Source: Malonomonas rubra DSM 5091 (GTDB taxonomy: Bacteria > Desulfobacterota > Desulfuromonadia > Desulfuromonadales > Geopsychrobacteraceae). From it: DNA of 64,000 nt. The notes beneath the pieces were generated by a model. The model did no database searches. It was given only the letters and a program-made list of their open reading frames with translations, and was not told the DNA's origin. This document shows positions 27,105 through 49,512 of this stretch, in pieces; the first letter of the stretch is position 1; every line of letters starts with the position of its first letter. The stretch is from the NCBI RefSeq assembly GCF_900142125.1, contig NZ_FQZT01000005.1, positions 186,001 to 250,000 on the forward strand, read 5' to 3'. The position numbers were made by a program, and so were the translations under genes.

Positions 27105-28034
27105 ATGATGAATGCGTTAGAAATTGATAGTCTTTCCAAATCGTTTGCCGGGACCGATGCAGTAAAGGGGGTTTCCTTTTCGATTAAGCAGGGGGAAATC
27201 TTTGGGCTGCTGGGCCCAAATGGAGCAGGCAAGAGTACGACGATCAATATGATTGCCGGTGTTTGCCGTGTGGGTGGTGGCTCGATCACTGCTTTCGGCT
27301 ATGACAACCAGCGCGACTACCGTTTTACGCGTCGCCTTCTGGGGGTGGTGCATCAGGAAATAGTTATCGACAATTTCTTCACCATTGATCAGGCGTTGAA
27401 GCTGCATGCCGGCTATTACGGTGTGAAAGATGACCCTGCCTGGCGCAACCTGCTGATTAAGCGCCTCGGATTAGGGCCGCATCTGAATAAGGTGATGTTG
27501 AAGCTCTCTGGCGGCCTCAAGCGACGTTTTATGATCGCCAAGGCTTTAATTCACAAGCCGCAGTTGCTGATTCTGGATGAGCCGACGGCTGGGGTCGATG
27601 TCGAACTCCGCCACGGATTGTGGGATTTTGTTCGCGAAATCAACCGACAGGGAATTACTATTCTGCTGACGACTCATTATCTTGAAGAGGCGGAACAGAT
27701 GTGTGATCGGATTGCCATAATGAACCATGGGGAGCTGATCGCGCTGGAAAAGACCCATGAGCTTGTGCGTCGTTTGTCGAGCAGGCGTTTGCGTTTGTGG
27801 CTTGCGCAGGAGTTGTTGCACGTGCCTGATGAGCTGGACACCTATCGGCCGGAGTTGTCAGAAGACGGGAGTGAGTTGCTGCTCTGTCTCCCGCCGGACG
27901 AGAGTGCCGGAGATCTGCTGAAACAGATTTGCGCTCTCGGGCTTGATATCCGAGATTTTGAAACCGATCAGAGTGGGTTGGAGGAGGTTTTTCTGCAGCT
28001 CACAGGAATGCGGGAGGGGAATGATGGTACCTAA
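27105..28034 (+). CDS. ABC exporter ATP-binding protein
   Basis: 309 residues of the ABC-2 (NodI/DrrA-like) class: Walker A GPNGAGKST, signature LSGGLKRRF, Walker B LLILDEPTAGVD and the H-loop TTHYLEEAEQ are all present. Two ATGs (27105 and 27108) are possible; the ribosome site is weak. The last 14 bases overlap the start of the permease gene, so the two make one transporter. The substrate is unknown; this class exports drugs, polysaccharide or lipid-linked compounds. Confidence 0.92.
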   Translation: MMNALEIDSLSKSFAGTDAVKGVSFSIKQGEIFGLLGPNGAGKSTTINMIAGVCRVGGGSITAFGYDNQRDYRFTRRLLGVVHQEIVIDNFFTIDQALKLHAGYYGVKDDPAWRNLLIKRLGLGPHLNKVMLKLSGGLKRRFMIAKALIHKPQLLILDEPTAGVDVELRHGLWDFVREINRQGITILLTTHYLEEAEQMCDRIAIMNHGELIALEKTHELVRRLSSRRLRLWLAQELLHVPDELDTYRPELSEDGSELLLCLPPDESAGDLLKQICALGLDIRDFETDQSGLEEVFLQLTGMREGNDGT

Positions 28035-28815
28035 AATCGCTTCGCCGCAATTTCATTCCTGGCTGCCTTTCGTGACGTTGCTGCGTAAAGAAGTGTTACG
28101 TTTTATGCGGGTGGCATCGCAGACTTTGCTGACGCCGATCATTACTGCGTCGCTTTACCTGTTTGTTTTTGGAGCCACCCTCGGAGAACGACTCAGCGTG
28201 TTGGAAGGTTTCAGTTATGCACAGTTTGTCATTCCTGGCTTGATTTTGATGGGAGTGATCAATAACTCTTTTGCCAACACCTCGTCGTCATTATTTATGT
28301 CGCGTTATCTTGGTGGCATTGTCGATCTGCTGGTGACGCCGGTAACCCCTCCGCAGTTTATCCTGGCCTACACGCTGGCAGCTATGCTGCGCGGCTCTCT
28401 TGTTGGCGGCGTGGTTTGGGTGATCTCGACCCTGTTTGCCGAACTGCCCTGGACCTCGCCTCTGCTTGCGGTGCTGATGGCTTTTCTCGCTAGTTTTCTG
28501 TTCGCTCAATTTGGCTTGATTGCGGCAATATTCGCTCACAACTTCGATACCTTGTCGATGTACAGCAATTTCCTGATCCTGCCGCTTATTTATTTGGGTG
28601 GGGTTTTTTATCCGATTTCCATCCTGCCAGCACCATGGGAGAATCTGTCTTATCTGAATCCACTTTTTTATCTGATCGATGGCTTCAGGCATGCAATTCT
28701 GGGGGTTGGTGACACCAGCTTCGTGTTGGCTTTTTGCGTGAGTGGGGGGATCGCAGCGACTTTGTTTGTCTGGGCTGCCTGGTTGATCGGCAAGGGGTAT
28801 CGTTTGCGCAGCTGA
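28021..28815 (+). CDS. ABC-2 type permease
   Basis: 264 residues with six membrane helices, matching NodJ/YadH-type ABC-2 permeases; the segment PLIYLGGVFYPISILP and NPLFYLIDGFRHAILG are conserved in this family. It starts inside the end of the ATPase gene (ATG at 28021 after GAGGGG). The selenoprotein gene follows 13 bases later, so all may be on one transcript. Confidence 0.92.
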   Translation: MMVPKIASPQFHSWLPFVTLLRKEVLRFMRVASQTLLTPIITASLYLFVFGATLGERLSVLEGFSYAQFVIPGLILMGVINNSFANTSSSLFMSRYLGGIVDLLVTPVTPPQFILAYTLAAMLRGSLVGGVVWVISTLFAELPWTSPLLAVLMAFLASFLFAQFGLIAAIFAHNFDTLSMYSNFLILPLIYLGGVFYPISILPAPWENLSYLNPLFYLIDGFRHAILGVGDTSFVLAFCVSGGIAATLFVWAAWLIGKGYRLRS

Positions 28816-28828
28816 AAAGGTGTCCGTT

Positions 28829-29092
28829 ATGTTGTCAGAGAAAAACGGCAAGGCATATAGCACTTTTTATGACGCGGTTCGTGACGAGACGGTTCTCGAT
28901 CGGCGGATAACGGTGCTGGTCGGGCTGGCCGCCGCTATGACGGCTGGCTGTGAGCCCTGAGTTGAACATTACCTCGGCGTTGCCGAGGACGCTGGGATTG
29001 GCAAGGATGAGGTCGGCGCTGTGCAGGGTATCTGTATGGCGGTGTCGGCAGGCAAGGTGAACGCACTGATGAAAGCTATTGAAGCAAAGTAG
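28829..29092 (+). CDS. AhpD-like (CMD family) selenoprotein with in-frame TGA
   Basis: 88 codons with AAAGG eight bases before the ATG. The frame has one TGA at 28958-28960 (codon 44) and then runs on to TAG at 29090. The product reads AAMTAGCEP-U-VEHYLGVAED, where U replaces the second cysteine of the CXXC redox motif of carboxymuconolactone decarboxylase/AhpD proteins. Downstream of the TGA the frame stays homologous (GIGKDEVGAVQGICMAV). A SECIS-type hairpin follows 11 bases after the TGA. Probably a thiol or peroxide reductase partner. It precedes the redox chaperone Hsp33. An ordinary nonsense mutation is less likely, see findings. Confidence 0.82.
28958..28988 (+). promoter_or_regulatory. 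Recoding site: UGA plus bacterial SECIS-type hairpin
   Basis: TGA at 28958-28960 is followed after 11 bases by a perfect 7-bp stem (CCTCGGC at 28972-28978 and GCCGAGG at 28982-28988) with loop GTT. The loop opens with G and starts 18 bases after the TGA, within the 16-37-base range remembered for bacterial SECIS elements. Confidence 0.75.
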
Positions 29093-29110: not shown

Positions 29111-29980
29111 ATGCAAGACCACATGGTGCGCGTTGTCAGCGCTGATGGTTTGCTGCGCGGAACTGCGGCTGTAACAACGGGGTTGGTGAAAGAAATCTGC
29201 CAGCGGCAGAAAAGTGACTTTACTGCGACTGTCGCACTGGGGCGCCTGTTGACGGGTGGTGCCCTTCTCAGTAGTTTGTTGAAGGGGCAGCAGAGGCTGG
29301 CGTTGATGATTGAAGGCAATGGCCCCCTCGGGAAAATGAGTGTCGAGACAGATGCCAAGGGGCGTGTTCGAGGCACGTTAAGTAATCCAGTCGTTGATTT
29401 GCCTCCGAAAGGCGATCGTTTTGATGTTGCAGGGGCAATCGGGCGAGCGGGCTTCCTCCACGTCTGGAAAGATCTTGGTCTGAAAGACCCTTATCAGAGT
29501 ATGGTGCAGCTGCAGACCAGTGAGGTGGGTGATGACCTGGCCTGGTATCTGGCCAGTTCCGAACAGGTTCCGTCCAGTGTGTCTCTTGGTGTTGAACTGG
29601 ACTCGGAAGGGGCTGTGGCGGCGGCGGGGGGGCTGCTGATTCAATCTTTGCCACCTGGCGATGAAGATCGTGTAGAGGCTGTTATTGCTGCTTTGCAACA
29701 ATTGCCACCAACAACCAGCTTGTTGCGGCAGGGGATGGCTCCTGTGGAGATATTGGCCAAAGTTCTTGCTGACGTTGAGTTTAGAGTGCAGGAAACGGTG
29801 CCGCTTGAGTTCTATTGTCCTTGTAGCCGTCAACAGACAGAGTCTATGCTGCGTTCGCTGGGCCCTGAAGAATTGAAGCGACTTGCTGCGGAGCAGGACT
29901 CAGTCGAAGTCGTTTGCGAATATTGTCGTACGCCCTATCAATTCAGCAGCGAAGAGGTTGAGCGGTTGGCGCAGCACTAG
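29111..29980 (+). CDS. hslO: Redox-regulated chaperone Hsp33
   Basis: 289 residues, the usual length. The C-terminal redox switch has the zinc-binding CXC and CXXC pairs, FYCPCSR and VCEYCRTPY, and the N-terminal domain starts DHMVRVVSADGLLRG as in the family. On oxidation the zinc is released and the protein holds unfolded proteins in the cytoplasm. GGAAGG precedes the ATG. It lies 18 bases behind the AhpD-like selenoprotein, so a shared role in oxidative stress is likely. Confidence 0.96.
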   Translation: MQDHMVRVVSADGLLRGTAAVTTGLVKEICQRQKSDFTATVALGRLLTGGALLSSLLKGQQRLALMIEGNGPLGKMSVETDAKGRVRGTLSNPVVDLPPKGDRFDVAGAIGRAGFLHVWKDLGLKDPYQSMVQLQTSEVGDDLAWYLASSEQVPSSVSLGVELDSEGAVAAAGGLLIQSLPPGDEDRVEAVIAALQQLPPTTSLLRQGMAPVEILAKVLADVEFRVQETVPLEFYCPCSRQQTESMLRSLGPEELKRLAAEQDSVEVVCEYCRTPYQFSSEEVERLAQH

Positions 29981-45557: not shown

Positions 45558-46868
45558 ATGAACTTCAGAGACTATCTACAAGCATTGAAAGAACAGGGGC
45601 AACTGACAGAAATTACTGCCCCGGTCAGTTGCGACCTTGAGGTTGCGGCGATCGCCCGCCAAGAATTCAAAAAAACAGACGGGGGAAAAGCTTTACTTTT
45701 TCAAAAGCTGCCTGATAGCGATTATTCGCTAGCTGTCAATGTTTTTGGCAATGAACGGCGTATGCTAGGCATACTACAAGATGATTCATTTCCAGCATTC
45801 ACTCAGAAGTTAAAAAATATCCTCCAACTTAAAAATCAGGGATATCCTTTCGGTAACAGCTTAGAGAACGCATCATTTTTACAGCACAAAGCTTCTTTTG
45901 ACTTATCCAGGATTCCAGCGTTAAGAAGCTGGGCTGGAGAAAAGGAGCCTTATCTTACTCTTGCCGTTGCTGTTTCGAGAAACCTGGATAATGGTGTCGT
46001 TAATCTTGGTCTGTACCGCGCACAAATCAAATCGGCCAAAGAAATAGCTCTGAACTGTTCAGCAGGATCAGGACTGGGAAGGCACCTTGAACTGGCAAAA
46101 AAAAAGAATGAAAAATTACCTGTAGCCTTGCTGTTAGGCTTGCCTCCGGTTTACTGGTGGCTAGCAGCGGCCCCCTTGCCGGAGGAGGTCAATGAATTGT
46201 CTTTTGCACATAAACTGTTTACTGATGGTGCACGTTTTTATGCCACGAAAGAGCATCATTTTCCCATTCCTGACGACGTTGAAATGGTCATTGAAGGGGA
46301 ACTGTCTATTACCGAAACATGTGTCGAAGGCCCTTTCGGGAACCATACAGGTCAATATGTCATGCGGCGAGACTGTCCGCTGATGCGCGTACAATCTGTT
46401 CAGCACAAAGATGATGCGATAATCCCTGCGACAGTTGTAGGGCCTCCGCCGAGTGAAAATGTTTACTTCGGAAAAGCAAACGAGTGTCTGATTCGAGAAT
46501 TGATAAAAAGCGAATTTCAGGAAATTCATGATATATCAATGCCGCTAAGCACCATCTTCCATGGAGCAGCAATACTCCAGGTTTCTTCCCTTAGTCAGCG
46601 CAGTCGCCGTGAATTGATAGAAGCTCTCTGGCAGGTCAGTCCATTGAACAGAAGTCGCTTTATTCTGCTGGTCGATCGTGATATCGATCTGTTGTCTTTT
46701 GAACAATGCTGGTGGCGCGCAATAAATGGACTTAAGTCTGAACGGGTTTACATGAACGGCGGGCGCATCGCGATAGATGCGACAGGCCTTGACCCAGCTA
46801 AGAAGGTCGCTGAAGACCCTGAGATTCTTAAATTGCTCGCAGCCCGTGCAACTGAGTACAAGCTATAG
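45558..46868 (+). CDS. UbiD-family decarboxylase, second copy
   Basis: 436 residues of the UbiD fold, with the catalytic stretch VEGPFGNHTGQYVMRRDCPL and GPPPSENVYFGKANE. It is about 180 residues shorter than the MqnL-like protein at 13273 and differs in sequence, so it belongs to a separate subfamily. It has no clear Shine-Dalgarno. Its codon use (more A/T-ending codons) differs a little from the adjacent nuo genes, which may point to later acquisition. Substrate unknown; it lies 10 bases before recQ, so the two could be cotranscribed. Confidence 0.82.
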   Translation: MNFRDYLQALKEQGQLTEITAPVSCDLEVAAIARQEFKKTDGGKALLFQKLPDSDYSLAVNVFGNERRMLGILQDDSFPAFTQKLKNILQLKNQGYPFGNSLENASFLQHKASFDLSRIPALRSWAGEKEPYLTLAVAVSRNLDNGVVNLGLYRAQIKSAKEIALNCSAGSGLGRHLELAKKKNEKLPVALLLGLPPVYWWLAAAPLPEEVNELSFAHKLFTDGARFYATKEHHFPIPDDVEMVIEGELSITETCVEGPFGNHTGQYVMRRDCPLMRVQSVQHKDDAIIPATVVGPPPSENVYFGKANECLIRELIKSEFQEIHDISMPLSTIFHGAAILQVSSLSQRSRRELIEALWQVSPLNRSRFILLVDRDIDLLSFEQCWWRAINGLKSERVYMNGGRIAIDATGLDPAKKVAEDPEILKLLAARATEYKL

Positions 46869-46878
46869 TGATCCCCTG

Positions 46879-48684
46879 ATGAATGCACCAAGGACCGGCA
46901 TATTAAAAACACTGCGGAATGTATTCGGCTATCAGAATTTTCGGCAAAACCAGCAAGAGGTTATCGCTACCCTCTTGGAAGGAAATGACGCCTTTGTTTT
47001 GATGCCGACGGGCGGCGGGAAATCTCTTTGCTACCAGATCCCTGCTTTGCACCGATCTGGTGTCGCTATCGTGGTTTCACCATTAATTTCGCTGATGAAA
47101 GATCAGGTTGATGCCCTGCTTGCCAACGGCGTCAACGCAGCTTGCTATAATTCGTCACTTTCGGCTGACGAGGCACGGGGAACGCTAGCCCGAATGCATG
47201 CAGGCGAACTTGATCTGCTTTATGTTGCGCCAGAGCGTCTACTGGCTGAAGGATTTCTAGAGCGGTTGAGAGACGTTGAGGTTGCTCTGTTTGCGGTTGA
47301 CGAAGCGCACTGCGTTTCTCAGTGGGGGCATGATTTCCGTCCGGAATATGTTCAGCTCGGCCAATTACGCTCTTTATTCCCATTGGTTCCGATGATCGCT
47401 TTGACGGCGACTGCCGAAAAGCAGACGCGGATGGATATTCTGCAGCGTTTGCAGCTGCAAGATGCAAAACAAGTCATTGCCGGATTCGACCGACCGAATA
47501 TCCGCTACACTGTTATCGATAAATCCAAACCCTTCAGCCAGCTTTGCGCGTTCCTGGATGCCCGTCCTGAAGAATCTGGCATCATTTATTGCCTGAGTCG
47601 CAAAAGAGTCGAAGAGGTTGCTCACAAGCTGCAGCTTGAAGGGATTGATGCTGCAGCCTACCATGCTGGCCTGGCAGCCGATGAACGTAAACATGTACAG
47701 GAGCAATTCATCCGTGACGATCTGCAGATAGTTGTTGCCACCGTTGCTTTCGGCATGGGTATTGACAAGCCAAATGTACGCTTCGTTGTCCATTATGACC
47801 TGCCGAAAAATATCGAAAGCTACTACCAGGAAACCGGCCGCGCCGGGCGGGATGGCTTGCCGGCAGAAGCGCTGCTTCTTTTCGGTTACGGTGATATCGC
47901 CATCAGCAGGGGCCTAATCGAAAAAAGCGACAACGCAGAGCAAAAACGGATTGAAATACACAAGCTCAATGCAATGGTTGCCTTTGCCGAGTCAGGAACT
48001 TGTCGCCGTCGCGCGTTACTCGGCTACTTTGGTGAAACTCTGGCGGAAGATTGCGGCAACTGTGATATCTGCCTAAACCCGCCTGAAAAGATTGATGCGA
48101 CCGACGATGCGCGCAAAGCTCTTTCCTGCGTTTATCGTGTTGGGCAGCGTTTCGGCATTGGCCATGTTATCGATGTCCTGCGCGGAGCAAAAACTCAACG
48201 AATCTACGATCTGCAGCACGATCAGCTGTCAACCTATGGCATTGGCAAGGAGCAGAATCAGGATCATTGGAACCACCTGTTGCGCCAGCTCATTCATTAT
48301 GGCTATCTGGAACAGGATATTGCGAATTACTCTGTTCTTAAACTGACGGAAGAAGCACGGCCGTTGTTGCGGGGCGAAATAACGCTGACAATGACCAAGC
48401 CACGGTTGAAAACAACGAAAAAGAAAAAACCGGCAACAAAGATTGTCGGGCTTGAGTATGATCAGGAGTTGTTCAACCTGCTGCGTGCGAGAAGAAAGCA
48501 GATCGCTGACCGTGATGGTGTTCCACCCTATGTCGTTTTTGGTGATGCCAGCCTTGCTGAGATGGCAGCAACCTTGCCAACAGATAGCAAGGCATTGCTG
48601 CAAGTCAACGGTGTCGGTCAAACCAAATTACAACGCTACGGAAATGAATTTATTGAAGAAATCGTTTCCTTCCTGTGCCGCTGA
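46879..48684 (+). CDS. recQ: ATP-dependent DNA helicase RecQ
   Basis: 601 residues, of the RecQ helicase type. Helicase motifs: PTGGGKSLCYQIP (Walker A), AVDEAHCVSQWGHDFRPEY (in parts: AVDEAHC and VSQWGHDFRPEY), ATVAFGMGIDKPNVR and ETGRAGRDG. A zinc-binding RQC part (CRRRALLGYFGE...CGNCDIC) and an HRDC domain at the end follow. It acts in recombination and fork repair. ATG at 46879 is chosen because the MNAPRTGILKTL start suits the family; the frame continues upstream to 46777 inside the UbiD-like gene. Confidence 0.96.
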   Translation: MNAPRTGILKTLRNVFGYQNFRQNQQEVIATLLEGNDAFVLMPTGGGKSLCYQIPALHRSGVAIVVSPLISLMKDQVDALLANGVNAACYNSSLSADEARGTLARMHAGELDLLYVAPERLLAEGFLERLRDVEVALFAVDEAHCVSQWGHDFRPEYVQLGQLRSLFPLVPMIALTATAEKQTRMDILQRLQLQDAKQVIAGFDRPNIRYTVIDKSKPFSQLCAFLDARPEESGIIYCLSRKRVEEVAHKLQLEGIDAAAYHAGLAADERKHVQEQFIRDDLQIVVATVAFGMGIDKPNVRFVVHYDLPKNIESYYQETGRAGRDGLPAEALLLFGYGDIAISRGLIEKSDNAEQKRIEIHKLNAMVAFAESGTCRRRALLGYFGETLAEDCGNCDICLNPPEKIDATDDARKALSCVYRVGQRFGIGHVIDVLRGAKTQRIYDLQHDQLSTYGIGKEQNQDHWNHLLRQLIHYGYLEQDIANYSVLKLTEEARPLLRGEITLTMTKPRLKTTKKKKPATKIVGLEYDQELFNLLRARRKQIADRDGVPPYVVFGDASLAEMAATLPTDSKALLQVNGVGQTKLQRYGNEFIEEIVSFLCR

Positions 48685-48696
48685 CAAGGAGTCAAT

Positions 48697-49512
48697 GTGA
48701 AAATTATTTCTTTTAATGTCAATGGATTGCGTGCTCGCCCCCACCAGATGCAAGCGCTGGTTGAGCAACATCGCCCAGATATTATTGGCCTGCAGGAAAC
48801 AAAGGTGCATGACAGTGAGTTTCCCCAGGAGATGATCGATGACCTTGGCTATCAGGTGATTCATCATGGCCAGAAGGGACATTATGGGGTTGCCACGCTG
48901 TTTAAAGGGGAAGTGACAGCGGTGCAGAGAGGGTTTCCCGGCGAAGATCCTAAGCACCAGCGACGGATGTTGATGACTACCCATTCGCTTGGAAATGGGC
49001 GGATACTGCGCGTGCTCAATGGTTATTTCCCGCAGGGTGAAAATCGCGAGCACCCGGAGAAGTTTCCCAACAAACGGAATTTCTATGCAAACCTGAAGCA
49101 TTGGCTTGAGAACGAGGCTGATCCGTCGGAACTGCTTGTCGTTATGGGAGATATCAACATTTCCCATCGGGACGATGATATCGGTATTGGTGCTGACAAC
49201 GCCAAACGTTGGCTGCGTACCGGTAAATGCAGCTTCCTGCCGGAAGAGCGGGAATGGCTGGAAGAGATTTACGCCTGGGGAATAAAGGATAGTTTTCGTA
49301 AACACCACCCGGATACGAACGACCGGTTCAGCTGGTTTGATTACCGGTCGCGCGGCTTCAATGCGGAACCGAAGCGGGGTCTGCGAATCGACCAGATTAT
49401 GGTGACTGAATCACTTTATGAACTCTGCAGCGATAGCGGGATCGACTATCAGATACGGGGTATGGAAAAGCCTTCTGACCATTGTCCGATCTGGGCAGAG
49501 TTTGATCTGTAA
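48697..49512 (+). CDS. xthA: Exodeoxyribonuclease III
   Basis: 271 residues of the AP endonuclease/exonuclease III family: [26 protein letters not shown] and [10 protein letters not shown] hold the metal and catalytic residues. It repairs abasic sites and 3' blocks. The start is GTG at 48697, eight bases after AAGGAG; an ATG two bases earlier is out of frame and followed by TGA. It lies 12 bases behind recQ, making a small DNA-repair operon. Confidence 0.95.

Follow-up and report, generated by a model that had tools for sequence, protein, structure and literature searches.

An in-frame UGA between an ABC exporter and hsp33 in Malonomonas rubra as a very probable selenocysteine codon of a small CMD/AhpD-fold protein

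The window considered here, that is the whole stretch of 64,000 nucleotides from the genome of Malonomonas rubra DSM 5091, contains a short plus-strand frame with a single internal TGA, which raises the question whether this triplet ends a protein, marks a gene in decay or is read as selenocysteine. The locus is composed of the following elements:
27105..28034, plus strand: ABC transporter ATP-binding protein (NCBIfam matches; start codon chosen by eye)
28027..28815, plus strand: ABC-2 type permease (NF011648, 251.6 bits, cut-off 225; conserved synteny)
28829..29092, plus strand: predicted CMD/AhpD-fold selenoprotein gene with C41-E42-P43-U44 (Pfam CMD match; purifying selection before and after the TGA)
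28949..28960, plus strand: codons of the C-E-P-U redox motif, Cys41 to Sec44 (invariance in the alignment of 25)
28958..28960, plus strand: UGA, predicted to be read as selenocysteine, residue 44 (TGA in 46 Sec and TGC in 10 Cys homologues)
28972..28988, plus strand: predicted bSECIS hairpin, stem CCUCGGC/GCCGAGG, loop GUU (covariation, Sec/Cys distribution, codon constraint, published constraints)
29111..29980, plus strand: hslO, redox chaperone Hsp33 (NF001033, 282 bits, cut-off 244; conserved synteny)

The gene at 28829-29092 comprises 87 codons and a TAG stop (29090-29092), its sole in-frame TGA (28958-28960) occupying the second redox position of C-E-P-U (context AGCEPUVEHYLGVA), and is translated as MLSEKNGKAYSTFYDAVRDETVLDRRITVLVGLAAAMTAGCEPUVEHYLGVAEDAGIGKDEVGAVQGICMAVSAGKVNALMKAIEAK. 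With the TGA read as Cys, the product matches the Pfam CMD domain (PF02627) over residues 7-85 with 37.2 bits against a cut-off of 23. Since translation table 11 yields no plus-strand ORF of at least 60 aa in this region, leaving antisense ORFs only, the gene would be overlooked by a plain gene caller. An earlier sequence-only reading of this DNA had proposed just that, describing a clean frame split by one TGA at the second Cys of a CXXC motif, homologous and in frame beyond it, and escaping standard gene calling; each of these points was borne out, close homologues keeping both the frame and the TGA. A scan of the window for further readthrough frames returned many weak ones. The longest, 46777-49512, was discarded, being recQ followed in frame by a gene of the exonuclease/endonuclease family, with the TGA between them and separate domains in each, while five other candidates gave no Pfam match.

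A search of 60 relatives provided 25 intact full-length homologues that could be read in frame, the window copy included, and all 25 carry TGA at this exact codon, none having Cys there; their alignment shows no variation at Cys41, Pro43 or the Sec position. Extension of the search, with this alignment as query, to 277 genomes of the class added 21 Sec forms that allowed detailed checking, 10 Cys forms and one TTA form (two of the added Sec forms, L105 and L106, have a doubtful end, their motif and hairpin being intact), so that TGA stands at this codon in 46 intact homologues of the class versus TGC in 10. Nine further Sec forms were found outside the class. The Cys forms, mostly reading GC[SVI]PCMEYYL, constitute one clade (support 93/87), in a tree of few columns that does not settle which of the two states, Sec or Cys, is ancestral. 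Median pN/pS is 0.40 before the TGA and 0.36 after it, and because both values are low, both halves of the gene are kept as protein. The single TTA form (L088 in genome G134, gene at 1468-1740) has Leu at the Sec codon and a perfect hairpin, TGA being found at the same codon in G135 of the same genus; it could reflect a sequencing error or a real, very recent mutation. A second copy of a CMD selenoprotein was also noticed in G155 (L140, from 4223), with another TGA in its start region, possibly owing to a different start or to a damaged 5′ end.

Downstream of the UGA the window sequence can form a hairpin of seven pairs (CCUCGGC, 28972-28978; GUU, 28979-28981; GCCGAGG, 28982-28988) with G first in the loop, the stem beginning 11 nt after the UGA and the loop lying 18 nt from it. 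Bacterial SECIS elements are expected to have a loop of 3-9 nt, a stem of 4-16 bp, a UGA-to-loop distance of 16-37 nt, G within the first two loop positions and a minimum free energy of at most -7.5 (PMC13188914). The hairpin lies within these bounds (loop 3 nt, 7 bp, 18 nt, and -14.5 kcal/mol for the stretch that holds it), in line with the bSECIS geometry that had been ascribed to it beforehand. As a single sequence, 60 nt of the window fold with z of -1.0 relative to shuffles, which is not unusual and is a weak control on its own; an Rfam scan of the region returned chance matches only. The hairpin is taken as real on account of its distribution, covariation and codon constraint. It is present at the same spacing (11-12 nt 3′ of the UGA) in 46/46 Sec homologues of the class and absent from all 10 Cys homologues, the mean energy of this stretch being -10.6 kcal/mol in the Sec forms versus -5.6 in the Cys forms. 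The stems of the Sec forms have 6-7 pairs, with an alternative reading of 8-9 pairs in two, and the usual form is CCUUGGC GUN GCCNNGG with G leading the loop; L041 lacks the outermost pair, and opening of the innermost one in L103 and L106 enlarges the loop to 5 nt. Among the first 25 sequences 99.4% of stem cells are paired and 3 of the 7 stem pairs show two-sided changes, compared with 1.0 in shuffles; examples are the replacement of GC by AU in L050, with a concomitant change from Gly to Ser in the protein, and of CG by UA in L039. As to codon choice, Gly at U+6 is GGC in 45/45 cases, an equally conserved Gly elsewhere using four codons, and Ala at U+8 is GCC in 41 out of 44, Ala elsewhere using all four. 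Judged from this choice, the stem codons are constrained beyond the requirement of the protein. One folding frame of the window sequence favours an alternative pairing of 9 bp that relatives do not share; the comparison supports the shared 7-bp hairpin over it.

The genome (3.96 Mb in 42 contigs) was also checked, as had been suggested, for the genes needed to insert selenocysteine, and all four are present. SelA occurs once (502 bits), SelB is full-length (353 bits), tRNA-Sec scores 69.9 bits against a gathering score of 47, and the SelD frame has a TGA of its own; SelA, SelB and SelD are grouped on one contig (C29). With the TGA conserved, the machinery at hand and Cys occupying the position in more distant homologues, the original proposal of a selenoprotein in place of a chance nonsense mutation is upheld, and on these comparative grounds we consider it almost certain that 28829-29092 is a functional selenoprotein gene whose UGA is read as selenocysteine.

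An AlphaFold model, calculated with Cys in place of Sec, consists of four helices (pLDDT 91.8), the last two of which are encoded after the TGA, and its best matches among solved structures, 3bey (TM 0.85) and RclX (7y4r), are both folds of the CMD type. In AhpD of M. tuberculosis a proton relay involves a Glu located 12 residues ahead of the first Cys and a His located 4 residues beyond the second. Both are absent here: among 47 sequences (46 Sec forms plus L088) position C-12 is I, A, V, L or T, and U+4 is Tyr in 47/47. The initial designation "AhpD-like" is thus right for the fold and fails for the relay residues. The mode of action may be envisaged as follows. SelB with Sec-tRNA-Sec would read the UGA at 28958 by means of the hairpin 28972-28988 acting as bSECIS. 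The product would be an all-helical protein of 87 residues with the CMD/AhpD fold and the CxxU pair Cys41/Sec44. Attack on the substrate, be it a peroxide, a disulfide or some other soft electrophile, would come from Sec44, and Cys41 would resolve the intermediate via a Cys41-Sec44 selenenylsulfide, to be reduced next by a cellular thiol. Because the Glu and His of AhpD are missing, this scheme requires a substitute for the relay, a part that an acidic selenol might play, or the helix dipole in the Cys forms; the selenol is presumed acidic enough to act without a relay, and its acidity cannot be the whole explanation since the Cys forms also do without one. On this scheme we favour, with moderate confidence, the activity of a small thiol oxidoreductase or peroxidase that works through a selenol.

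Genomic surroundings give some indication of what such an activity may serve. The gene was originally placed between an ABC exporter and Hsp33, and both NCBIfam matches and synteny agree with this. The best NCBIfam match of the ATPase at 27105..28034 is a DrrA-type subfamily, below its cut-off, and the same upstream partner occurs in relatives. Only 13 nt separate the end of the ABC-2 permease from the start of the CMD gene, and 18 nt separate the stop of the latter from the start of hsp33; this tight spacing suggests that in the window the exporter, the selenoprotein gene and hsp33 form one transcript, and the family to which the window belongs probably co-transcribes them as well. Among the first 25 loci 22 have the ABC permease upstream and hsp33 downstream (L041, L051 and L052 differ), and in nearly all of these nuoA lies beyond hsp33. 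Co-transcription with hsp33 and the exporter would be in keeping with a part in defence against redox or thiol stress.

Relatives offer two other settings. In families f12 and f17 the CMD gene is directly upstream of selA-selB at 17 intact loci, always on the strand of selA: this holds for 15/15 loci of f12 (L100, L101, L107-L119) and, in f17, for L088, L099 and the remnant L055. It precedes the selA start by about 30-50 nt, and selB comes next in nearly all of them. In the Geobacter-like families f24 and f25, tblastn revealed nine loci (L089-L094, L103, L104, L106; six Cys and three Sec forms) with the CMD gene just downstream of an hgcA-like gene, itself preceded by a MarR-like regulator in 8/9. 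Identification of the mercury methylation genes is based on L104, where HgcA scores 413 bits (NCBIfam cut-off 275) and HgcB 134 bits (cut-off 99); L090 also shows an HgcB-like frame, and HgcA at the other loci is assigned from 66-72% identity to that of L104 (56-68% for L106, where it is in two pieces). Outside the class, L130 and L132 have hgcA nearby too. In the literature that could be searched, no paper was found linking hgcAB with CMD proteins.

These settings feed a different reading of the same selenoprotein, in which its main role is the handling of selenium or soft metals (selenide, mercury, arsenic) and not defence against peroxide or disulfide stress. Besides the copies leading selA-selB and those following hgcA/hgcB in either Sec or Cys form, it draws on the absence of the AhpD relay residues and on the fusion of related CMD domains to methyltransferases in MduS and ArsM-AhpD. 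The window copy, however, adjoins hsp33, its own genome contains no hgcA match, and a neighbourhood is merely suggestive, so that we regard this role as possible and rather unlikely. A broader version is a good deal more speculative: the family would be a selenium/soft-metal redox module recruited to selAB, hgcAB and hsp33 settings, UGA decoding in the short gene ahead of selAB acting in addition as a sensor of selenium by which selAB expression is tuned, and the hgcAB-linked protein supplying or protecting a step in the methylation of mercury that involves a thiol or selenol. As far as the sensor is concerned, a short gene with UGA and SECIS ahead of selA-selB could act in this way.

Two further readings dispute selenocysteine itself. 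According to one, UGA is a real stop and the downstream part is kept as RNA structure or through reinitiation. Termination at UGA does normally compete, to some extent, with Sec insertion, but the elements HYLGVA, AVQG and MAV.AG beyond the TGA are conserved as protein with low pN/pS, the final two helices of the model follow the TGA, and the Cys homologues encode the whole protein in one uninterrupted frame; functional truncation is hence hardly credible. Disrupted close homologues, named at the outset as an observation that would speak against a selenoprotein, do exist in the literal sense. The congeners G002 (L057) and G008 (L054) harbour decayed copies with apparently one common frameshift, the copy in a third congener, G003 (L056), has several lesions, TAG among them, and that in the more distant G052 (L055) is frameshifted, the TGA still being visible in the remains. 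Since other close relatives that have the gene keep an intact Sec form, the decayed copies are interpreted as losses in single lineages. SelA was found in 4/4 of these genomes and tRNA-Sec in three, being not found in the assembly of G008; these genomes indicate that the gene may disappear while the Sec system stays, and the decay itself that it is dispensable in some lineages. A pseudogene in the window, its catalytic codon hit by a chance nonsense mutation and the homology beyond it a recent relic, would agree with these decayed copies. It is refuted by the same TGA in 46 intact homologues across many genera with both halves under purifying selection, the presence of the Sec machinery also speaking against it, and we give it next to no weight.

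A functional selenoprotein being the preferred reading, its relation to described systems can be considered. Surveys of 2006 and 2008 reported selenoproteins with CxxU in CMD or AhpD-like domains, and recent reviews list them. The CMD-like selenoprotein of a 2026 review (PMC13188914) shares with the window protein the Pfam domain PF02627 and CxxU; that entry has one exemplar and no NCBIfam model, so the likeness is one of description only. The GSU3128 family (NF041047), a "distant AhpD homologue" of Geobacter, is likewise a small stand-alone CxxU CMD selenoprotein from the same order, but the two members that were read have Glu at C-12 and His at U+4, both lacking in the window family. The window protein scores 24.6 bits with NF041047 (cut-off 110) and was rejected as a member; genes of both families coexist in G045, G070, G074 and G135. 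Its best NCBIfam matches are to the C-terminal CMD domain of MduS (NF045649; 53.5 bits, cut-off 380) and of the ArsM/AhpD-domain protein (NF041537; 52.4 bits, cut-off 510), and assignment to either was dismissed, as the scores fall below the cut-offs; the match covers that domain only. Both proteins are long, are built of several domains and contain additional Sec residues, whereas the window protein is a lone domain; long relatives in the class (L121-L125) carry CxPU too. AhpD of M. tuberculosis (1gu9) and RclX (7y4r) share the helical fold and a CxxC-type pair, from which the window protein differs by Sec in place of the second Cys and by replacement of the Glu/His relay residues. No NCBIfam model was matched at its curated cut-off by the window protein or by the one relative tested. 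Since it falls far below the cut-offs of the named models and coexists with GSU3128-family genes, the window family is, by sequence comparison, a separate family of a known kind, with the exemplar of PMC13188914 compared by description only.

CxxU selenoproteins with CMD domains are already known. The finding is sound and of use for annotation: plain gene callers do not see the gene, so that throughout this bacterial family they would pass over a conserved redox protein next to hsp33. The family comprises at least 55 Sec forms and a Cys clade among the sequences examined, although neither the window protein nor the relative tested matches an NCBIfam model at cut-off. It also provides an unusually clean case of Sec/Cys exchange, which tracks whether the SECIS hairpin is there or not. 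The association with selAB and hgcAB is the part that specialists may not expect, and these neighbours suggest a connection, open to testing, of a small selenoprotein with selenium supply and with the methylation of mercury.
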